This document shows, piece by piece, positions 16,489 to 47,538 of a stretch of DNA of 64,000 nt. The DNA is taken from positions 124,001-188,000 of IMG/VR virus record IMGVR_UViG_3300021959_006010. One strand, written 5' to 3'. The stretch's first letter is position 1, and every line of letters starts with the position of its first letter. The translations under genes were made by a program, and so were the position numbers. Under the pieces are notes generated by a model, which had not been told where the DNA came from, did not search any database, and saw only the letters and a list, made by a program, of their open reading frames with translations. Origin of the DNA: a virus.

Positions 16489-16517
16489 ATTATAGTATAC
16501 ATTACTTATCCTGTCAA
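16489..16517 (-). promoter_or_regulatory. Consensus sigma70-type promoter for queD-FNR-uvsE
   Basis: TTGACA at 16512-16517 and TATAAT at 16489-16494 with a 17-base spacer: perfect consensus on the minus strand. Confidence 0.82.
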
Positions 16518-33736: not shown

Positions 33737-33811
33737 TGGAGTGAGCGGCGAGACTCGAACTCGCATGAGACAGATTTGCAATCTGTTGCCTAACCTTTCG
33801 ACCACGCTCAC
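33737..33811 (-). tRNA. tRNA-Cys(GCA)
   Basis: Complete cloverleaf: acceptor GTGAGCG/CGCTCAC, anticodon stem ACAGA/TCTGT with loop TTGCAAA giving GCA, T-loop TTCGAGT, discriminator T and encoded CCA. The first bases overlap the stop codon of the deaminase gene. Confidence 0.95.
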
Positions 33812-34125
33812 ACTGTATATTCTACTTCTGGTATGCCTATTTTTTCAATTGCGTGTTGGCATACACGACACGGCTTTGCTAATCTAGGATTACCATCTCT
33901 GTCATAGCGTTCGATTACAATCTTTCTGATTGCAGTCCAATCTTTGCATTTACGCAGAGCGTCAATTTCTGCGTGTAGGAAAATTGCATCAGGCTTACCT
34001 GCTTCAACTGCAAACTTACCTTGCAGTGGATGGCTCTTTGTGTAACTGTTTGTACCAACTGCTAACTTGCGTCCTCGCTTGTCATACAGTGTTGCAGTTA
34101 AATTAAATTCGCCTCTGTTTTGCAA
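33808..34125 (-). CDS. Cytidine/deoxycytidylate deaminase-family protein, 105 aa
   Basis: H51-A-E53 and P-C86-RV-C89 are the zinc-binding HAE and PCxxC motifs of nucleotide deaminases. At 105 residues it is shorter than dCMP deaminase of T4 (193 aa). The start is a TTG at 34125 after AAAGGATAGGA; no in-frame ATG is available. It lies between tRNA-Pro and tRNA-Cys with a four-base overlap with the latter, so it may be read from the tRNA transcript. Substrate could be dCMP, cytidine or a tRNA base. Confidence 0.82.
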   Translation of the reverse strand: MQNRGEFNLTATLYDKRGRKLAVGTNSYTKSHPLQGKFAVEAGKPDAIFLHAEIDALRKCKDWTAIRKIVIERYDRDGNPRLAKPCRVCQHAIEKIGIPEVEYTV

Positions 34126-34144
34126 TAGTCCTATCCTTTAAAAC

Positions 34145-34222
34145 TGGTCGGGGATGCAGGATTCGAACCTGCGGCTTTTCCGCCCCAAACGGAACACTCT
34201 GACCAAACTGAGCTAATCCCCG
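34145..34222 (-). tRNA. tRNA-Pro(TGG)
   Basis: Acceptor CGGGGAT/ATCCCCG, anticodon loop TTTGGGG giving TGG, T-loop TTCGAAT, discriminator A and encoded CCA. It begins at the base right after the CCA of tRNA-Trp. Confidence 0.95.
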
Positions 34223-34296
34223 TGGCATAGGTGGAGGGAGTCGAACCCCCATTAACGGTTTTGGAGACCGCTGTGTTGCCATTACACCACACCCAT
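34223..34296 (-). tRNA. tRNA-Trp(CCA)
   Basis: Acceptor ATGGGTG/CACCTAT, anticodon loop CTCCAAA giving CCA, T-arm GGGGG/CCCTC around TTCGACT, discriminator G and encoded CCA. No spacer separates it from tRNA-Pro, so the pair must be cut apart by 3'/5' processing. Confidence 0.93.
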
Positions 34297-34333
34297 AAAA
34301 AAAGCCCCTAACATTATTAGTGCTAGGGGCTTG
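34297..34333 (-). terminator. Intrinsic terminator or processing hairpin before tRNA-Trp
   Basis: Arms AAGCCCCTA and TAGGGGCTT close a 13-base loop and are followed by a T run that ends at the first base of tRNA-Trp. A TTGACA lies directly upstream of the left arm, so a promoter overlapping the hairpin is also possible. Confidence 0.7.
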
Positions 34334-34354
34334 TCAACGTAATAAAAAGTCACG

Positions 34355-34417
34355 TCAAGACATACCCCTGCATCCTGGAGGCCAACAAGTAATGTTTGTT
34401 GTGTTAGTCTTGAACAT
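34355..34417 (-). CDS. Candidate 20-residue leader peptide
   Basis: After a strong promoter and an AAAGGATAGATAC ribosome site, ATG at 34417 opens a 20-codon frame to TGA at 34355. The product is MFKTNTTNITC, then WPPGCRGMS, with two Cys and a Trp-Pro-Pro step that could stall ribosomes. It lies between the promoter and the terminator hairpin at 34297, which is the layout of an attenuator leader. It could also be a coincidental frame in a small RNA. Confidence 0.45.
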   Translation of the reverse strand: MFKTNTTNITCWPPGCRGMS

Positions 34418-34446
34418 GTATCTATCCTTTCATTTAGTATGCGTAT

Positions 34447-34475
34447 ACTATAACTTATTTATCTCTGTGTGTCAA
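34447..34475 (-). promoter_or_regulatory. Sigma70-type promoter within the tRNA region
   Basis: TTGACA at 34470-34475, TATAGT at 34447-34452, 17-base spacer. It drives the small peptide frame and possibly tRNA-Trp, tRNA-Pro, the deaminase and tRNA-Cys by read-through. Confidence 0.78.
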
Positions 34476-34645
34476 CCGTTTTTTGAATTATTTTCTTCTA
34501 TTTTACATCCGGCTTTAATACCACAATGTGGACAACTAAACTGATACCTATCAATTTTCATTTTTTCCATTGTAGCATATGTAAACCAGTTCTTGCAATT
34601 TCCGCAAGTTAGATGCCAAATAGTTTCTTTTACTGCTTTGAACAT
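34472..34645 (-). CDS. Small zinc-ribbon protein, 57 aa
   Basis: ATG at 34645, stop inside the -35 box of the following promoter. Two knuckles, CGNC near 14 and CPHC near 38, plus a further Cys (GCKIEE), make a rubredoxin-like zinc ribbon. Starts MFKAVKETIWHL. It sits between tRNA-Thr and the promoter. Function unknown; nucleic-acid binding is plausible. Confidence 0.65.
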   Translation of the reverse strand: MFKAVKETIWHLTCGNCKNWFTYATMEKMKIDRYQFSCPHCGIKAGCKIEENNSKNG

Positions 34646-34661
34646 AGTTTACTTTCTTTTA

Positions 34662-34737
34662 TGGTGCCGGTGCACGGACTCGAACCGCGGACCTACTGAT
34701 TACAAATCAGTTGCTCTACCAGCTGAGCTACACCGGC
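34662..34737 (-). tRNA. tRNA-Thr(TGT)
   Basis: Acceptor GCCGGTG/CACCGGC, anticodon stem ACTGA/TCAGT with loop TTTGTAA giving TGT, T-loop TTCGAGT, discriminator A and encoded CCA. Confidence 0.96.
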
Positions 34738-34743
34738 TAAAGT

Positions 34744-34905
34744 TTATTCTGTTACTTCCTCTACAGGTGCAACATAACCTCTTTTATTTAGTTCCGCAAC
34801 TGCTTTGCTTTTGTGTTTACGGTTGTTATTATCTTGCGATGCACGTACTAGAGCTTCGTTGCTCATTGTGCTTACTTTTACTTCGTTAATCTTTGGCGAT
34901 GCCAT
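34744..34905 (-). CDS. Small protein in tRNA cluster, 53 aa
   Basis: ATG at 34905 with an AACGAGGAAATACTT ribosome site, stop six bases before tRNA-Thr. The product (MASPKINEVKVSTMSNEALV at the start, KAVAELNKRGYVAP near the end) is helical and charged. Not recognised; the good ribosome site supports translation. Confidence 0.6.
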   Translation of the reverse strand: MASPKINEVKVSTMSNEALVRASQDNNNRKHKSKAVAELNKRGYVAPVEEVTE

Positions 34906-34928
34906 AAGTATTTCCTCGTTAAGTTATT

Positions 34929-35003
<75 letters not shown>

Positions 35004-35009
35004 ATTGTA

Positions 35010-35100
35010 TGGCGGAAACGGAGGGATTCGAACCCTCGGTACGCTTATCACGTACGGCTCCTTAGCAGGGAGCTGGTTTCAGCCACTCACCCACGTTTCC
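35010..35100 (-). tRNA. tRNA-Ser(GCT)
   Basis: A class II tRNA of 91 bases with the long variable arm expected for Ser. Acceptor GGAAACG/CGTTTCC, anticodon loop CTGCTAA giving GCT, T-loop TTCGAAT, discriminator G and encoded CCA. Confidence 0.95.
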
Positions 35101-35102
35101 TA

Positions 35103-35165
35103 TAAAACATATCCCCGCTTTATCAGATACGTTGCATCAGCTATACTGTATGCAGGATATGTTTT
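35103..35165 (-). ncRNA. Structured RNA between tRNA-Ser and tRNA-Asn
   Basis: Perfect 11-base arms (AAAACATATCC and GGATATGTTTT) enclose about 39 bases, inside which TGCAT/ATGCA and CAG/CTG form a further small hairpin. It fills the gap between the two tRNAs, so it would be part of the same primary transcript. It lacks a T-loop and anticodon arm, so it is not a decayed tRNA. It could be a processing element or a small RNA. Confidence 0.5.
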
Positions 35166-35169
35166 AACT

Positions 35170-35245
35170 TGGCTCCCCGAGCTGGACTCGAACCAGCGAC
35201 ATACGGATTAACAGTCCGGTGTTCTACCAACTGAACTATCAGGGA
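35170..35245 (-). tRNA. tRNA-Asn(GTT)
   Basis: Acceptor TCCCTGA/TCGGGGA, anticodon loop CTGTTAA giving GTT, T-loop TTCGAGT, discriminator G and encoded CCA. The anticodon and T arms closely match bacterial tRNA-Asn. It is the first tRNA of the cluster, downstream of the glycine-zipper gene. Confidence 0.95.
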
Positions 35246-39912: not shown

Positions 39913-40385
39913 ACTTGACAGTCCTTGCCCGGATACACATATTCTTCTTCTTTACGCTGTGCAAATAAATCTTCTACGTCTTTAGCAATAAATTTACCGT
40001 TAATAACTCGCATCACTAAATCGCAGCCATTGCTTTTAATATACACCCGGCCGCCGTCAATCATTTTACCATTATCTAGTGTTCGATAATCATGATGAGT
40101 TTGACTGTAATAGTACTTACCTTCTTCTTCAATCATACCAAACTCAAGTGACTCCACAACATCTGCGTTAGTAATCATAAGGTGACCTCTAACATTATCG
40201 TAATACAACCCAAAATAACGATTACCAAACTCGGGATGAGGCGTTTCTCTATAGTACACATCCACAGGGACATCACTAGCAGTAAGATCTGTAGTGCAAA
40301 CATATTTTACCTCCACTCCGTCTTTATTAGTATAGTGCTCTGTGACCTTTTCTACATCAAAGTTAGGTCTATGTTGAATATTCAT
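39909..40385 (-). CDS. Unknown protein, 158 aa
   Basis: Beta-rich: VEVKYVCTTDLTASDVPVDV, RYFGLYYDNVRGHLMITNAD and a C-terminal basic/acidic tail EEEYVYPGKDCQV. It starts inside tilS (17-base overlap). No family recognised. Confidence 0.62.
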   Translation of the reverse strand: MNIQHRPNFDVEKVTEHYTNKDGVEVKYVCTTDLTASDVPVDVYYRETPHPEFGNRYFGLYYDNVRGHLMITNADVVESLEFGMIEEEGKYYYSQTHHDYRTLDNGKMIDGGRVYIKSNGCDLVMRVINGKFIAKDVEDLFAQRKEEEYVYPGKDCQV

Positions 40386-40968
40386 CTTTTACCTTCTTAG
40401 CAATAGTTTTATGGATACCAGGATTTACTTGTAATACATGAGGCATCATTTCATGTCTAATATAGTTTCTAGTATAACACGTATCTGTGTTGCTGTCATC
40501 CTCTATGTACGGTACATTTTTCAAATTACACCAAAGTTCAAAATCTCTTTTACGTGTGAGGCGGAAAGGACGGATCACGTTCTTGTTGCGGTAGGGGATA
40601 ATTTTTCCTGTACCGTGCATACTGCTCCACACCCAAGTTTCTACACAATCATCTAAGTGATGGCAGGTAATAATATCTGCGTTAATTGTAGAGAAAAACT
40701 TGTAACGTTCATTGCGCCAGTATTCTTCTTGGCTTTCATTTTGATCACGCTCTCGAGTGATACGACCATACAAAAGACCTAGGCCGTGTTCGTTGCAGTA
40801 ATCGCCAATAAAATATCCTGCTTCTTTACTGTGTTCTGTGCCATGATCAAAATACATAACCGAAACAGTATGATTGTTGCGTAAAAAGTCTACAACTGCC
40901 ATCGAGTCTACGCCGCCTGAACAGGCAACGTAAACTTCTCTTGGTAACTTATTCTGTAGTTTTATCAT
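40369..40968 (-). CDS. tilS: TilS-like tRNA(Ile)-lysidine synthetase, N-domain only
   Basis: A 199-residue PP-loop ATPase. SGGVDS (17-22) is the P-loop; TCHHLDDCVETW near 100, VIRPFRLTRKRD near 130 and EDDSNTDTCYTRNYIRHEMM near 155 are TilS signatures. TilS changes C34 of tRNA-Ile(CAT) to lysidine so that AUA is read. Cellular TilS has extra C-terminal domains, absent here. No tRNA-Ile is in the window, so it may act on the host tRNA. Overlaps the preceding gene by 20 bases. Confidence 0.85.
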   Translation of the reverse strand: MIKLQNKLPREVYVACSGGVDSMAVVDFLRNNHTVSVMYFDHGTEHSKEAGYFIGDYCNEHGLGLLYGRITRERDQNESQEEYWRNERYKFFSTINADIITCHHLDDCVETWVWSSMHGTGKIIPYRNKNVIRPFRLTRKRDFELWCNLKNVPYIEDDSNTDTCYTRNYIRHEMMPHVLQVNPGIHKTIAKKVKDEYST

Positions 40969-41377: not shown

Positions 41378-42217
41378 TTACACCTTATACAATCTTACAT
41401 AATTTAAACGAGTTTCGTTTGCTTCAAACAAACGATTTTTAGTTTGTGACTTAACCTTTGCTTTAATACGCTTGCGGTCTCCCACCGCATATTCAAATTT
41501 ATTCATAAAAGACACAAGGTTACCGTCAGTAGTAACTGCTGTATAGTTGTATGATTCCCACTGTGTGCTGTAACGCTTGTCAAGAATTTTTACAACAGTT
41601 TCAACAATGTCTTTTTCTTTACCAAGATACTGGCTGTCGCGATACTCAACTCGAATCTCTTTCTTTAGTCCATTTTCGTGCTGATCACGTTTGATAAATT
41701 CTGGAGCATATGCAATGCGACCCATACCTACAACACGAACTTCGTCCTGTGTCAGTTCTGTTACCATATCTGCTTTAAAGTTGTCAAGCTCGCCTAAACC
41801 AAGCATCACATAACGCTTCATCCACTTGATTGCTTCTTGTACACTAGCATAATCGCCTTCGGTAGGTTCAAACATAACAAAGTCTGTAGGAAGATATTGT
41901 GCATTACTACTGTTGGTTTTCTGCTCCCAGTAGAACCGAACAAGATCTTTATTAGCAAATTGTGTCTTGTTTTCTTCTTCGCTAAATCGACGGGTATGCT
42001 TAACATAAGTTTCTTTGTTAATTCGATAGGCAGCATACGCTACTGCGAGTGCATCTGTAAGCGGAACAGTTTTCATTGGAAGTACCTTATGCTTATTTCC
42101 TGCAATAGTAATGCTAGGAGTTTCGTCAGCAAGTTCGTATTCTAGTTCCCAACGCTTAAACTCTGACTTGCTCATACTACCCCAGTCAAGGGTATCTGGA
42201 TTAGGAAGTTTTGCCAT
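41378..42217 (-). CDS. Conserved phage protein of unknown function, 279 aa
   Basis: Starts MAKLPNPDTLDWGSMSKSEF. A central helical region is followed from about residue 185 by beta-strand segments ending in a possible OB-like domain (SFMNKFEYAVGDRKRIKAKV, ETRLNYVRLYKV). A strong sigma70-type promoter lies just upstream. No motif I can name; a nucleic-acid role is suggested only by the basic barrel-like end. Confidence 0.65.
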   Translation of the reverse strand: MAKLPNPDTLDWGSMSKSEFKRWELEYELADETPSITIAGNKHKVLPMKTVPLTDALAVAYAAYRINKETYVKHTRRFSEEENKTQFANKDLVRFYWEQKTNSSNAQYLPTDFVMFEPTEGDYASVQEAIKWMKRYVMLGLGELDNFKADMVTELTQDEVRVVGMGRIAYAPEFIKRDQHENGLKKEIRVEYRDSQYLGKEKDIVETVVKILDKRYSTQWESYNYTAVTTDGNLVSFMNKFEYAVGDRKRIKAKVKSQTKNRLFEANETRLNYVRLYKV

Positions 42218-42253: not shown

Positions 42254-42282
42254 ACTATAACACCGAACCTAATCGATGTCAA
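42254..42282 (-). promoter_or_regulatory. Sigma70-type promoter for the 279-residue gene
   Basis: TTGACA at 42277-42282, TATAGT at 42254-42259, 17-base spacer; the -35 overlaps the end of the methyltransferase-like gene. Confidence 0.78.
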
Positions 42283-42703
42283 CCGAATCAAAGAATTTTT
42301 CAAAAATAATTTCTAAAGTTTCTTCGTCATAAGGAAACGTTCCGTCAAAACGATAATGATATCTAAGTCCGTCAGCACATACAATATTTTTTTCTACAAT
42401 ATGACGTAGGTCCTCTCTTCCACATAATAATCTCTCACGACATAGTTCAATATTATCTTGCATAAGATCAACACCATAAATGTTACTAAGTGCGTGTTCG
42501 AACGTGCTACCATTCTCCATCTTACGTATAAGTATTTCGCCTAAAAATTGTCCATCACCGCAACTCGGTTCAAGATATGTTTTTGTAGGATCTGTAAACA
42601 ACTCTCGCGGAAGTTGATCAAGTACTTCGTTTACAAGTTCAGTTGGCGTAAAAACTTCGCCAGTTGATTTAACTCTAACTTCTTCTCGTTCTATTCCACT
42701 CAT
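42269..42703 (-). CDS. SAM-binding methyltransferase-like protein, 144 aa
   Basis: I chose ATG at 42703, eight bases after the stop of the larger methyltransferase. GEVFTPTELVNEVLDQLP (about 15-32) is the FTP motif of adenine methyltransferases, and TYLEPSCGDGQFLGEIL (about 42-58) is the SAM-binding motif I; NIYGVDLMQDNIELCRERL follows as motif II. The protein ends before an NPPY motif would be expected, so it may be a specificity/accessory partner or a shortened enzyme. Next to a second methyltransferase and a split helicase. Confidence 0.75.
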   Translation of the reverse strand: MSGIEREEVRVKSTGEVFTPTELVNEVLDQLPRELFTDPTKTYLEPSCGDGQFLGEILIRKMENGSTFEHALSNIYGVDLMQDNIELCRERLLCGREDLRHIVEKNIVCADGLRYHYRFDGTFPYDEETLEIIFEKFFDSVDID

Positions 42704-42710
42704 ATACGAT

Positions 42711-43997
42711 CTATTTCGTATGTGATTTTTTATCTTCTTCAGATCCAATTTCTTGTACCTTTTTTAATTCTTCAGGAGTTAGATTAAAAATAGTTGCAAT
42801 GTTAATATCTTGTGTGAGATCAATCTTTTTCAAGTATTTTAAAAACTTGATATTAGGAGCACGACCTTCTTGAGTAATAACTTTAAAGAATTTACAAAGA
42901 TCAGAAACACATAGTTCTTTTAGCGATTCTGCTTCTTTTGCTGTCTTTGTGCTGTAAGAAATTACCCCGTGTCCGCCCAAAGGATGCTGTTGACAACCTG
43001 ACAGCATGTTTCCGTTATAATCAATAACGTAACTAGTTCCAAGCATTGCAGTGATAAACTTTGGTCCTCTTGGATCAAATCCTTCGTTTTGTTTCTTTAA
43101 TTTTTCTAGCTTTTTTTCTGTTACTGTGACTTGATAAGTTACTGGGTTATTGCCTGCTTTGATTCCGCCAATTGCAGTAAATTCTCCATTAGGATCTTCT
43201 ACAAAATTATTTTTATCAAACTTACCAATATCGGCACTAGTACCGTTGTAATTATTAGGTCCATCGCTATCAAAACACTTGTCTACGATTGACATTACTA
43301 CTGGATCGGCAGCATACTTCTTTAGTTGTAACATTTTATAAGTATCGTGCTTTATAGTACCTTCGTCGGAAAGTTCTATATAGCTGTCTTTAAAATTTGT
43401 AGTTTTTTGTACAACTGAGTATCCGATTTCAACACCAATGTTTGGAAAATGTTTTTGTACACGATTACCTTTTGAAACCATATGCACAGTTCCAGCTCGT
43501 TCCATATTTGTACCATCTACTTTATGTCCAAACAACCCTGGAAAAAGAGTAGGAGGAGTAATTAAAGCAACATATCCTCCGTCTTTAACTAAGTTATACG
43601 ACTTATTATAAAAATGCTGATAAATTGCATTCTTGCCGTTTGGATGCTTAAATGGAGGGTTGCCTATTACTACGTCAAATTGCATATCAGTTTTCCATTC
43701 TAAAAAGTCTGATTTAATAACATTTTCAAAACCTTTGTTTTTTAAATCGTTAGTAAACACTTTGTACTTATCGGTCAAGTAAATGCTATTTTTAATGTCT
43801 TGAACCGAACGTCCAAGACGAAGCATACGTTGTGCAACTGCGTTTGCTTCAGTGGCATGTCCACTTGCAATAGATAAGATTTTTACATTGTCTTTGAGTA
43901 AGAGTGCATCAGGTATGTTTTCGAGGATTTCATCCCATAATTCTTTCGAATCAGGTTTACCTAAAATGCCTTTGGTAAGATCACGTACAAAACGCAT
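42711..43997 (-). CDS. N6-adenine DNA methyltransferase (Eco57I-like)
   Basis: 428 residues. Motif I-like ILSIASGHATEANAVA (40-55), then FDVVIGNPPFKHPNGKNAIY with catalytic NPPF at 113-116, then DGGYVALITPPTLFPG. The C-terminal 250 residues would hold target recognition. It probably methylates adenine in DNA. It lies between the split helicase and a smaller SAM-binding protein and has its own consensus promoter, as restriction-modification methylases often do. Confidence 0.85.
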   Translation of the reverse strand: MRFVRDLTKGILGKPDSKELWDEILENIPDALLLKDNVKILSIASGHATEANAVAQRMLRLGRSVQDIKNSIYLTDKYKVFTNDLKNKGFENVIKSDFLEWKTDMQFDVVIGNPPFKHPNGKNAIYQHFYNKSYNLVKDGGYVALITPPTLFPGLFGHKVDGTNMERAGTVHMVSKGNRVQKHFPNIGVEIGYSVVQKTTNFKDSYIELSDEGTIKHDTYKMLQLKKYAADPVVMSIVDKCFDSDGPNNYNGTSADIGKFDKNNFVEDPNGEFTAIGGIKAGNNPVTYQVTVTEKKLEKLKKQNEGFDPRGPKFITAMLGTSYVIDYNGNMLSGCQQHPLGGHGVISYSTKTAKEAESLKELCVSDLCKFFKVITQEGRAPNIKFLKYLKKIDLTQDINIATIFNLTPEELKKVQEIGSEEDKKSHTK

Positions 43998-44023
43998 AAC
44001 GCCCTCGTTTATTAACTATGTAT

Positions 44024-44052
44024 ATTATACTATACAATAAATGGACTGTCAA
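44024..44052 (-). promoter_or_regulatory. Perfect sigma70-type promoter for the methyltransferase
   Basis: TTGACA at 44047-44052, TATAAT at 44024-44029, 17-base spacer. It overlaps the last codons of the helicase C-terminal ORF, so the methyltransferase can be made without the helicase. Confidence 0.85.
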
Positions 44053-45370
44053 CTGTATTCTTAGAGTTTTGTACAATTACATCTAGGATAGGTTCGTTCA
44101 AAAGATTTCTATCAAGAATCACTTCTACAAAGTCGGGCGAAACACCAAACAAGTCTTCAAACTCTTCTGCATCTTCTGTGTCATTACCGATTATTTGAAT
44201 ACATTCTCTATAGGTATTTCCTGCGTTAGCAAGATTGTAAACACTAGTTGCACTCATATTGAGAGATCTAACTGCATCATTGATAAGTTTTTCAAGAGCA
44301 ATTTTTTCGTTATCGGTTAATTTTGTTCTTTCAGTATCACCTTCTGTTATTCTATTTTTAGCCTTATTGATAGCGTTTCGTTTTTGCTTCTCAGAAGCAG
44401 ATGCTTTAACATTTGCAATGTCTTCAATGATATCTAAAACACTTTCAACGTCAACAGATACATCTGCAATACGTAATAGGTTTTCGTTATCTCCAAGTAT
44501 TTTAAACAAGTCTTCTTCGGTAACTTCAACGGCTGTACCGTAACGTACCTTAAAACAATCAATGCTAGATAGTACAAAACTTTGCGCACTTGGAAAGTCT
44601 AAATTTTCGCTTTTTTGAACCATTACAATTTCGTCAACAAGCAAACGCTCGATGTTCTCTGAACGGTTAGGATCAAAGCTCAAATCTAAAATATGTCCAT
44701 ACTCTTTAAAATTGCCGGAGTAAGTTTTGCCCGGAGTAAGACAACGGCTTACTTTTTGTTGTGTGGAATCTACACTTCCGCGATCATATGCAACGACAGT
44801 TGCTTGAATTTCCGAAATGCTGTAGCTACGTGAGCCCATTTGATTAGCAATAATAATTACACCTTCTTTGCCTGCCATACGTGCTTCGTTAATTTCTTTA
44901 GTAGTTTCGTATTGTGCTTGCTTATTGCTAGTGTAGTCGCCGTTAAGAATCTTAATATGATAATTAGGAATTGCACGTTCTGCAATTTCTTTAATCTGTT
45001 TCATCTCACGCTTGTTTGCACTTACTAACATCATAAAACAATCAATGCTTTCGCCAGTAAGATTGCTCAAGTTAATCTCTTGACGCAAGGGCTCTTCGCC
45101 AGTTAGACTAAGAAACAGTTTAGTAATAAATGCCTTGTTGCCGTTAGGCTTTCCCCAAATTTTAATCCAACTTGGTTGCACAACCTCATCAAACTCTTCA
45201 ACGTCTTTTTTAAGATTGTCTACTTCTAACATATAAAACTTACGTTTAACAATGTTTTCTTCAGTTTGTTCTAGTTGCGAGTATGCAGTATAGATAACAC
45301 CGTCAGCACGACCTGATCCTTTTGCAAGACGTTGTACATTTGTGCCGCTTGCGAAAACTTTAATTAACAT
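44030..45370 (-). CDS. SF2 helicase, C-terminal half
   Basis: 446 residues. SGTNVQRLAKGSGRADGV near 8-26 follows on naturally from the DEAD-box end of the upstream ORF. IDCFMMLVSANKREMKQI is motif IV-like, VIIIANQMGSRSYSISEIQA (about 168-187) motif V and STQQKVSRCLTPG motif VI with its Arg. The C-terminal 200 residues are helical. The start ATGTTAA overlaps the upstream stop by seven bases in the -1 frame. So one helicase is made as two chains, or joined by frameshifting. Confidence 0.8.
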   Translation of the reverse strand: MLIKVFASGTNVQRLAKGSGRADGVIYTAYSQLEQTEENIVKRKFYMLEVDNLKKDVEEFDEVVQPSWIKIWGKPNGNKAFITKLFLSLTGEEPLRQEINLSNLTGESIDCFMMLVSANKREMKQIKEIAERAIPNYHIKILNGDYTSNKQAQYETTKEINEARMAGKEGVIIIANQMGSRSYSISEIQATVVAYDRGSVDSTQQKVSRCLTPGKTYSGNFKEYGHILDLSFDPNRSENIERLLVDEIVMVQKSENLDFPSAQSFVLSSIDCFKVRYGTAVEVTEEDLFKILGDNENLLRIADVSVDVESVLDIIEDIANVKASASEKQKRNAINKAKNRITEGDTERTKLTDNEKIALEKLINDAVRSLNMSATSVYNLANAGNTYRECIQIIGNDTEDAEEFEDLFGVSPDFVEVILDRNLLNEPILDVIVQNSKNTVDSPFIV

Positions 45371-46173
45371 GTTAAAAACTCCATCTTCTTAACTTGGTTG
45401 TCTGCATGTGTTCCGAAGTCACCTTCGTCTGCAAATACGAAAATGTCATCATTATTAATATTTGCAATCCACTTGTGTTTAGTAGACCATTCGTCAAAGT
45501 CGCCGTGCAATGATACAGGAATAATAATACGTTGGTTGTTGTCAAGTGCATGTATAGCACTCAACTCGTCTTGCACAAGTGCAATATCTAAAAAGTCATC
45601 GAACTGATCAAGCTCATCAATAAAACTACTGTGTACACTAAGCCAGTAAGCAGGTAATAGCATTACACGATTTCCATACTTTTTAGATATCTCATTAAAC
45701 AACATAAGAGCCCAAATAGTTTTACCAAATCGAGGACATAAATTTGCAATTACTGTAGCAATGTCGCCGCATTTCTCAATAATGTCCATTGCTTCGTCTA
45801 ATGCTTTCTTTTGCAACTTACGCAATTTTACTTTGTTACGAATTCGTTTACCTTCAAGTTCTGCAATTAAAGCGTCAATGTATGTATATGCATCTTCAAC
45901 GTTGTTGCCGGGAATCTTAAACCATTCTGTGCCTTTGCCGTCAGTATGGTGCAGTCCTCTTTTAGTAAGAACTTTGTGTAGTTCGTAATCTCGTTTGATT
46001 TTTTGCAAGTTATTCCATGCACCTACGTGTACTTTCGATTCGTACTCGGCTGCGCCGCCTTGTTCGTTCATACGAACTTCAACATCTCGAATACTATCAC
46101 CTACTTTTGTAAGTACATAGCCGTCGAAAAGTTTAATTGCACTTGGATAAGTGTAAGAATATATGTTAATCAT
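45364..46173 (-). CDS. GIY-YIG-like domain fused to SF2 helicase N-terminal half
   Basis: I chose ATG at 46173, which overlaps the stop of the SprT gene (ATGA). Residues about 18-90 (YVLTKVGDSIRDVEVRMNEQ, ELHKVLTKRGL, GTEWFKI) resemble the T5orf172/MUG113 branch of GIY-YIG nucleases. Residues 146-153 (CPRFGKTI) are a Walker A variant, MLLPAYWLSVHSSF motif Ia-like and VFADEGDFGTH (246-256) the DExx box. The ORF stops right there and the second RecA domain is in the next ORF. A nuclease-helicase of restriction type is my inference. Confidence 0.75.
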   Translation of the reverse strand: MINIYSYTYPSAIKLFDGYVLTKVGDSIRDVEVRMNEQGGAAEYESKVHVGAWNNLQKIKRDYELHKVLTKRGLHHTDGKGTEWFKIPGNNVEDAYTYIDALIAELEGKRIRNKVKLRKLQKKALDEAMDIIEKCGDIATVIANLCPRFGKTIWALMLFNEISKKYGNRVMLLPAYWLSVHSSFIDELDQFDDFLDIALVQDELSAIHALDNNQRIIIPVSLHGDFDEWSTKHKWIANINNDDIFVFADEGDFGTHADNQVKKMEFLTC

Positions 46174-46598
46174 GTGTCCCATGTCCATTTTTTATTGCCA
46201 AGACCTTCTTGCTCTGCCCATCGTACAAATAGTCCGCACTCTCTTCCATGTGCTTCTATTTCCCACGGCTGATCCCAATAATCAGTAGTTGGGCTGATCA
46301 GTTTACCTTGCCATACGTTTTCAGATTTTAGTTCTTTACGGGCATACTGTTTTACATGCACCATTTCGTGTGCAACAGTTTCTAACAGTCTGCGTAATTT
46401 CAACGTGCGATCTACTTCAATTTCAAATGTACGTGTAGTTTCGCTTAAACAATAACCATACGCACCTTTAGGAGATGTTAGCTTAACGGTTATGTCTAGT
46501 GTACGCATACGCGGCATTAACTTCTTAATACAAAAGTTAACAATGCTTTCTACATACTTTTTTTGTGACTGTGTTCCGCCAATTATCGTAAGTTCCAT
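46170..46598 (-). CDS. SprT-like zinc metalloprotease, 142 aa
   Basis: H77-E78-MV-H81 in VAHEMVHVKQ is the HExxH zinc site, and EIEAHGRECGLFVRW supplies the third ligand region. SprT/Spartan-type proteins cut DNA-bound proteins in eukaryotes; in phages the role is unproved. It leads the gene run into the helicase and methyltransferases and overlaps the helicase start by four bases. A consensus promoter precedes it. Confidence 0.83.
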   Translation of the reverse strand: MELTIIGGTQSQKKYVESIVNFCIKKLMPRMRTLDITVKLTSPKGAYGYCLSETTRTFEIEVDRTLKLRRLLETVAHEMVHVKQYARKELKSENVWQGKLISPTTDYWDQPWEIEAHGRECGLFVRWAEQEGLGNKKWTWDT

Positions 46599-46630: not shown

Positions 46631-46659
46631 ATTATACGATCAAAAACAGTAAGTGTCAA
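46631..46659 (-). promoter_or_regulatory. Perfect sigma70-type promoter for sprT-helicase
   Basis: TTGACA at 46654-46659, TATAAT at 46631-46636, 17-base spacer, in the gap after infA. Confidence 0.85.
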
Positions 46660-46667
46660 CCAAAGAT

Positions 46668-46886
46668 TTATGTTCTATATATAACGCGGCCTTTAGAAAG
46701 ATCATATGGAGACATTTCTACTGTAACTTTGTCTCCTTGTACTAGACGAATTTTGAATTTTCTCATTTTTCCTCCAGTATATGCAGTTATGATATGCTCA
46801 TTGTCTAATTTTACTTTGAACATTTGATTTGGTAATACTTCAACAATAGTACCGCTTAATTCGAACAAATCTTTGTCTTTGGCCAC
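46668..46886 (-). CDS. infA: Translation initiation factor IF-1
   Basis: 72 residues, exactly the length of E. coli IF-1, and alignable along its whole length: [40 protein letters not shown] and [19 protein letters not shown]-1 is an OB-fold protein that binds the 30S A site during initiation. The basic GGKMRK loop is intact. It starts two bases after an AbrB-like gene. Cell-encoded IF-1 is essential and universal, but a phage copy is unusual. With S21 in the same window it suggests altered initiation on phage mRNAs. Confidence 0.94.
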
Positions 46887-46888
46887 TT

Positions 46889-47077
46889 TTACTCCTCTTT
46901 GTTGATTTTTTCTAAAATCAATGTACCTTGATCGCCCACAGAAATTTTGAGAGTATCTCCCTCTTTTAAGTTTGCTGCTTCAAGAACTTCTGGCGGAATA
47001 TTCATTAGCACATTTTCGTCATCGCCAGGAATGTCTTCAAAAATATCTTCTACTTTATAAACAATTGGTTTTTCCAT
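46889..47077 (-). CDS. AbrB/MazE-fold (SpoVT-AbrB) protein, 62 aa
   Basis: I chose ATG at 47077 because CAGAGGAGAACCCT precedes it. Residues about 25-60 ([36 protein letters not shown]) form the swapped-hairpin AbrB fold typical of antitoxins and transition-state regulators; there is an acidic N-terminus. It sits immediately before infA and after a TATAAATA late box. It may be a DNA-binding regulator; no toxin is next to it. Confidence 0.72.
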
Positions 47078-47090
47078 AGGGTTCTCCTCT

Positions 47091-47104
47091 GATAAATATT
47101 TATA
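47091..47104. promoter_or_regulatory. Bidirectional late-promoter palindrome
   Basis: ATAAATATTTAT carries GATAAATA on the plus strand (47091-47098) and TATAAATA on the minus strand (47097-47104). The minus box serves the AbrB-infA pair; the plus box lies five bases from the ATG of the plus-strand gene. Confidence 0.6.
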
Positions 47105-47538
47105 TGATCGATGCGTATCGTTTAGCATTTTACGATGTAATAAAAGAAACGCAAGCCAAAACAGGATACGAATTACCGGAACACCTTGAGGCTTACGTTG
47201 TTATGCTTTTGGCTCATCATATAGATCATCCTAATTTTTTACCTGAAAAATCATTTGCAGAAGCATACTTAAAACTAGAACGTCCTGGCGATATGAGTGC
47301 AAAAGAACTAGGCGATATTTGTTTGTTTGTTACAGGTGTTTTTCCTACATATGGACGTAAACACGGACTTAATCGTAAATACTATCAAGATATCGGAATT
47401 GGATCTTACGAAATAGTAGCAGAGGTAATGAGTCCTGATTTGTTCTCACAACTTGCTACACATTTCAATTTTTTGTCAGACTTTATAGAAATATCTACTA
47501 GTTCTTCCAAACAGATGCATAGTATCCTTTTCCATTAG
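47104..47538 (+). CDS. Unknown plus-strand protein, 144 aa
   Basis: Helical: MIDAYRLAFYDVIKETQAKT, HLEAYVVMLLAHHIDHPNFL, GDICLFVTGVFPTYGRKHGL. The HH and YGRKHGLNRKYY clusters do not match a family I know. There is no Shine-Dalgarno; the late box ends five bases from the ATG, so the message would be close to leaderless. Its 3' end overlaps the convergent gene by 41 bases. Confidence 0.65.
   Translation: MIDAYRLAFYDVIKETQAKTGYELPEHLEAYVVMLLAHHIDHPNFLPEKSFAEAYLKLERPGDMSAKELGDICLFVTGVFPTYGRKHGLNRKYYQDIGIGSYEIVAEVMSPDLFSQLATHFNFLSDFIEISTSSSKQMHSILFH

Follow-up and report, generated by a model that had tools for sequence, protein, structure and literature searches.

In bacteria, the dnmA-yeeB-yeeC genes encode an MmeI-like methylase, a superfamily 2 (SF2) helicase and a T5orf172 protein. 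This cluster showed no restriction in B. subtilis, but an antiphage effect is reported for the V. crassostreae homologues, which influenced phage sensitivity (PMC9973331). A module of related parts is present on the minus strand at positions 42269–46188 of the 64,000-nt stretch analysed here (the window), which corresponds to bases 124001–188000 of the 275,366-base virus record IMGVR_UViG_3300021959_006010, a jumbo phage by its size. The four genes, in the order P4, P3, P2, P1, are predicted to encode a GIY-YIG domain fused to lobe 1 of an SF2 motor, the remainder of the motor, an N6-adenine methylase, and a protein resembling the S-adenosyl-methionine (SAM)-binding half of a methylase. We read them, with a probability of roughly 55%, as a phage-borne ATP-dependent restriction-modification system with a joint P1-P2 methylase that would act mostly against rival phages.

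Like DnmA-YeeB-YeeC, the module is a conserved cluster that combines a predicted m6A methylase with an SF2 helicase and a GIY-YIG protein of the T5orf172 type, and a preliminary description of the module as undescribed therefore stands only in part. The bacterial cluster is chromosomal and includes a single-chain MmeI-like methylase and a nuclease encoded by its own gene, whereas P2 is of the Eco57I type and the GIY-YIG domain is fused to the motor. No counterpart of P1 is reported in the accessible part of PMC9973331.

Type ISP enzymes such as LlaGI and LlaBIII carry the nuclease, motor, methylase and target-recognition domain (TRD) on one chain (PMC7049714), whereas the window has three chains plus P1. 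In domain order (nuclease, SF2 motor, methylase, TRD) the module is nevertheless Type ISP-like, and the fused relatives at L033 and L042 are colinear with Type ISP (L numbers denote survey loci). The suggestion of a remodelled ISP-like enzyme fits, as fused relatives run helicase-methylase-TRD in the ISP order (L024, L033, L042 and L045). The P1 region also aligns to the SAM-binding half of LlaGI and LlaBIII. Type ISP enzymes move along DNA with ATP and cleave it when they collide. Their nuclease is Mrr-like, with a PD-(D/E)XK N-terminus, whereas the window has T5orf172 in this position and Mrr_cat_2 was found only as a separate gene (L034 and L059).

Type III restriction-modification systems can also be phage-borne, as is EcoP1I of bacteriophage P1, and combine a Mod protein that has a swapped TRD with a Res motor. 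A variable TRD (26–33% identity) and a constant motor (71–97%) were likewise found here (L030/L031 and the window clade), and relatives include ResIII matches. The nuclease (in Type III, a C-terminal PD-(D/E)XK domain of Res) and methylase are of other classes, and Type III systems lack a counterpart of the module protein P1. A DNA methylase occurring naturally in two polypeptides is exemplified by the C5 methylase M.AquI (cited in PMC5944983), but the module is of the N6-adenine type and cut between motifs III and IV, while M.AquI is cut elsewhere. The PADLOC profile PDLC03626 ('REase_MTase_IIG', 1359 aa) spans both the helicase and the methylase of gut phage NatCom_35866, but describes a single chain and does not match the window helicase. 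A jumbo-phage survey (PMC7824862) mentions a methylase that resembles M.EcoKI in circularly permuted form and proposes that T5orf172 proteins act in recombination; its accessible part describes no such module. No description of a separate P1-like SAM subunit was found in the literature covered by the search, which had most subscription papers outside it.

The P1 and P2 methylase proteins

P2 (42711–43997, minus strand, 428 aa) is an Eco57I-like N6-adenine methyltransferase (Pfam Eco57I, 49.4 bits) that has a degenerate motif I (GHATEA), followed by NPPF (43650–43667) and a hypervariable target-recognition region (42711–43649) sharing 26–33% identity in the window clade. P1 (42269–42748, minus strand, 159 aa) starts at a TTG codon and its open reading frame (ORF) overlaps that of P2 by 38 nt. 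It includes motifs X, I, II and III, with FTP and CGDGQF present, but no NPPY, and matches the Pfam N6_Mtase N-terminal half with 21.9 bits (cut-off 20.4). The two proteins match complementary parts of known methyltransferases: P1 aligns to residues 11–105 of M.BseCI, and P2 to residues 87–170 of M.TaqI, around the NPPY of the latter. The motif order of gamma-class N6-adenine methylases (X, I, NPP(Y/F), TRD) is thus found in P1 and P2 jointly and in neither cleanly alone.

In the AlphaFold2 (AF2) model of an NPAF-TRD-P1 fusion (L060), the P1 region aligns to residues 16–157 of CamA and 865–990 of LlaGI/LlaBIII, i.e. to the SAM-binding half. As the model is poor outside P1, it was not used as proof of one joint fold. 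The motif I of P2 itself was compared in 40 loci. Of these, 14 have an intact-like motif and 7, one of which is the window, a degenerate (GHGTE-like) one; in another 14 the motif cannot be recognised, and in the remaining 5 it is missing from a protein that starts at NPPY or an NPAF variant. In 26 of the 40, P2 thus has a degenerate or unrecognisable SAM-binding half, or none.

A search with P1 gave 32 loci, of which 31 are testable and one is truncated at a contig end. In all 31, several of which are near-duplicates, P1 either immediately follows an NPPY/TRD protein or is fused to the end of an NPAF one. P1 also occurs in permuted order as the C-terminal part of an NPPY-TRD protein in Aeromonas phages Aeh1 and phiAS5 and of an NPAF-TRD protein at L060 and L065–L068, and a minimal P2 accompanies P1 in P-SSM2 (PSSM2_036-037) and in a second S-CAM7 pair. 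The latter (L073:4470-5826) has NFPF in place of NPPY, and the annotation shows no motor in its vicinity. At L063:6064-7438, on a proteobacterial metagenome-assembled genome contig, a minimal NPPF-TRD protein overlaps a P1 protein amid bacterial genes and is possibly a chromosomal orphan split methylase.

The preliminary description counted two methyltransferase-like proteins. This holds for P2, but rather than a second methyltransferase, P1 is probably the half of P2 that binds SAM, or else its partner. An independent second methylase was rejected, as P1 has no motif IV and stands behind an NPPY-type protein at every testable survey locus. P1 and P2 likely form a split methylase in which P1 would provide the SAM site in trans. 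Alternatively, P2 may be a methylase on its own, with P1 as a catalytically inactive partner that serves to regulate P2 or to widen DNA binding, in what would still be a restriction-modification system. Pseudo-methylase subunits act as such partners elsewhere, the N-terminal half of P2 is kept in most loci, with motif I intact-like in the 14 mentioned, and the P2 N-terminal half and P1 are homologous (hhalign probability 97.6%). This explanation is made unlikely by the 19 of 40 loci in which P2 starts at NPPY or has no recognisable motif I, and by the covalent fusion of P1 to bare NPPY/NPAF-TRD proteins.

The methylase genes are preceded by an exact TTGACA-N17-TATAAT promoter sequence (44024–44052, minus strand) that ends 26 nt upstream of P2, as had been noticed previously. 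There are three exact matches in the window, compared with 0.11 expected; the other two are at 16489–16517 and at 46631–46659 (minus strand), the latter preceding a SprT-like gene. A promoter score of 11–12 out of 12 was found upstream of P2 in 10 of 16 loci, whereas 0.4% of 100-nt pieces drawn at random from the window reach it. Such a promoter can permit expression of the methylase apart from the nuclease.

The GIY-YIG domain and the SF2 motor

P4 (45364–46188, minus strand) has two possible starts, at 46188 (274 aa) and at 46173 (269 aa, as assigned initially), and the latter is more likely because the relatives start at MIN. Its N-terminus (45859–46173, minus strand) matches Pfam T5orf172 with 20.2 bits (cut-off 20.0), and in the distant gut phage NatCom_35866 this domain heads a 974-aa helicase with 38.1 bits. 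The GIY-YIG positions Y, K-G, R, H and E-W-F are identical in the two phages. An AF2 model of P4 residues 1–116 was obtained with a predicted local distance difference test (pLDDT) score of 84.9 and a predicted template modelling (pTM) score of 0.81. When Foldseek candidates were realigned to it, the GIY-YIG nuclease Slx1 ranked first (Z 3.9 over 92 residues; next chain 2.5). The sequence profile and, more weakly, the predicted fold thus assign the P4 N-terminus to the T5orf172 family of the GIY-YIG superfamily, in agreement with the preliminary description.

The remainder of P4 forms a RecA-like lobe 1 that carries Walker A (CPRFGKT, 45718–45738, minus strand), in which RFGKT is invariant, and motif II (FADEGDFG, 45412–45435, minus strand), which is DEAD in other clades. 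P3 (44030–45370, minus strand, 446 aa), whose start overlaps the P4 stop, includes the RecA-like lobe 2 and the C-terminal region of the motor. Its motif III is SGTN, and the conserved stretches NQMGSRSYS and QKVSRCLTPG are taken as motifs V and VI. Hence, Walker A, DExx and motifs III and VI of SF2 helicases/translocases are all found in P4 and P3 together, and the split motor was recognised correctly, as were all other elements listed at that stage (GIY-YIG-like start, DEGD, the motif V/VI region, NPPF, and FTP with motif I lacking NPPY). In the Pfam search, ResIII is above the cut-off in the motors of L049, L047, L051, L034 and L059 and below it in the window P4 and P3. The C-terminal part of P3 has no Pfam match above the cut-off, and no fold search of that part was made. 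A helicase profile found no relative among PDB sequences. Another ResIII-type helicase (66 bits) is encoded outside the window, at G000:C1:242556-243017 (minus strand).

The relatives of P4 are 65–76% identical. The motor is one protein in L005 and L004. In the window, L002 and L007 it consists of two proteins, with the break falling between motifs II and III. A sequencing error is an unlikely cause of the split, given that 35–39 nt separate the ORFs in L002 and L007 and that the linker of the fused L005 protein is missing from the window. Motor and methylase are fused in L024, L033, L042, L045 and L051; a 1255-aa protein of a 484-kb phage is one such fusion.

The order of the module is kept in L002, L005, L007, L030, S-CAM7 and others, and chance is ruled out by this conservation in other phages. 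In cyanophage S-CAM7, genes for helicase N, helicase C, a methylase and a P1-like protein follow each other as in the window; the first has no GIY-YIG match. The preliminary description was to be abandoned if the N-terminus of P4 lacked structural similarity to GIY-YIG folds and related genomes lacked a conserved neighbourhood; neither was the case. A megablast search against phages gave no match. The module looks mainly viral, because a scan of genome contigs, made with only two P1 peptide patterns, revealed 2 loci among 84,980 species.

Exchange of recognition domains, nucleases and cassettes

The motors of L030 and L031 are 96–97% identical. Their P2 proteins share 84% identity as far as NPPY and 28% after it, and their P1 proteins 81%. 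The respective values are 80–88, 81, 30 and 68% for L033 and L042, and 71–81, 63–69, 26–33 and 75–83% for the window, L002, L005 and L007. P2 identity falls about 15 residues past NPPY and rises again near the C-terminus, and this sequence profile is the pattern of TRD exchange.

The nuclease varies as well. In the window, L039 and NatCom_35866 the motor has T5orf172 as its N-terminal domain, and L049 reaches the related MUG113 profile. LEM-3-like GIY-YIG domains (57–59 bits, above the cut-off) are fused to the NPPY protein in the T4-like Vibrio phage PVA23 and Klebsiella phage KpV477 (L021:3298-5441 and L022:3532-5465), where P1 follows; no match to the module helicase profiles was found near these loci, which represent a helicase-free form. 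Mrr_cat_2 is above the cut-off (28–31 bits) in separate genes beside a ResIII helicase in L034 and L059. Mrr-like genes next to P2 were located at L014:5434-6072, L020:4439-5002, L034:4190-4765 and L059:5256-5819, with Pfam support in L034 and L059 and weak or by-eye similarity in L014 and L020. All listed loci with T5orf172, MUG113, LEM-3 or Mrr_cat_2 carry P1. The N-terminal motor domains of L030, L038, L047 and L053 are GIY-YIG-like by eye, without Pfam support, and were not counted.

The pairing of unrelated or distantly related nucleases with the same methylase part favours restriction over repair. A modification-only function, in which P1 and P2 would methylate phage DNA against host restriction and the GIY-YIG motor would serve recombination or repair, is consistent with the recombination role proposed for jumbo-phage T5orf172 proteins in PMC7824862 and with P2-P1 pairs that have no motor beside them, as in the second S-CAM7 copy; such pairs indicate that modification can exist alone. 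This function is improbable for the module, given that other P1-P2 loci have an Mrr or LEM-3 nuclease instead and that motor and methylase are fused or jointly replaced.

Loci were gathered by P1-like peptide patterns, which biases P1 conservation in the set upward, and the comparison of the window with L030 was therefore judged against flanking genes. The flanks (AbrB-like, IF-1 and SprT-like on one side; 279-aa, 75-aa and TilS-like on the other) are 57–77% identical and P1 is 77% identical, whereas GIY-YIG/RecA1, RecA2 and P2 are only 27–30% identical. By this comparison, P1 appears to remain with the phage backbone while the rest of the cassette is replaced. No direct repeats flanking the module were found in the window.

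Outside the module, the SprT-like gene (46170–46598, minus strand, phrog_10499), to the left, is common to L030 and L005, and the 279-aa protein gene (41378–42217, minus strand), to the right, is 72% identical in L030 and 76% in L005. A phage homologue of translation initiation factor IF-1 (46668–46886, minus strand, 81.5 bits) adjoins the SprT-like and MazE/AbrB-like (46889–47128) genes, and a TilS-like PP-loop protein (40369–40968, minus strand, ATP_bind_3, 104.9 bits) is shared with L030, L005 and L002. Seven tRNA genes are present at 33737–35245.

Proposed function of the module

In the proposed restriction-modification system, P1 would bind SAM and P2 would supply the catalytic NPPF loop and the TRD, so that both together act as one N6-adenine methylase that marks the phage DNA at a short sequence. 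The SF2 motor bearing the GIY-YIG nuclease would consist of P4 and P3. An unmethylated target, probably bound via P1-P2, would cause the motor to translocate on DNA and the nuclease to cut, while the separate promoter would allow the methylase to be made without the nuclease. The initial suggestion of a module that would mark the phage's own DNA and degrade foreign DNA is plausible. Its use is probably in exclusion between phages: related phages exchange TRDs and entire nuclease-motor-P2 cassettes, which suggests rival phage DNA as the main prey, perhaps with host DNA in addition. We propose more tentatively a natural split N6-adenine methylase whose conserved SAM subunit P1 stays on the backbone and serves interchangeable catalytic/recognition and nuclease-motor units (T5orf172, LEM-3 or Mrr), which would make the module a swappable inter-phage weapon.

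Several observations weigh against the proposed restriction-modification system. The structural match to Slx1 is weak by itself at Z 3.9, and Foldseek with the GIY-YIG model gave nothing at E ≤ 0.001. The L060 fusion model is poor outside P1 (pLDDT 46). The intact-like motif I of P2 in 14 of 40 loci indicates that P1 may not be required for SAM everywhere. No P1 was found with the motor and P2 of L004, a 29-kb fragment, and P2-P1 pairs at L063 and in the second S-CAM7 copy have no adjacent motor. Finally, replacement of the cassette was seen in a single phage pair.

The module might also be the relic of a former restriction system, in which the methylase has kept a DNA-marking role in regulation or counter-defence alone. 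Such a role has been suggested for DnmA of B. subtilis, where DnmA-YeeB-YeeC showed no restriction (PMC9973331). For the module it is very improbable, as Walker A, DEGD and the GIY-YIG positions are all intact in the window and the methylase target region continues to be replaced.

If the proposed restriction-modification system is real, large phages, including cyanophages and T4-like phages, carry restriction-modification systems of exchangeable parts around one conserved subunit. This would explain unannotated phage genes such as CC030809_00053-00056 of S-CAM7, PSSM2_036-037 and Aeh1p090, and would provide a natural example of a methylase that is split and permuted. Restriction-based exclusion of one phage by another would then become directly testable.
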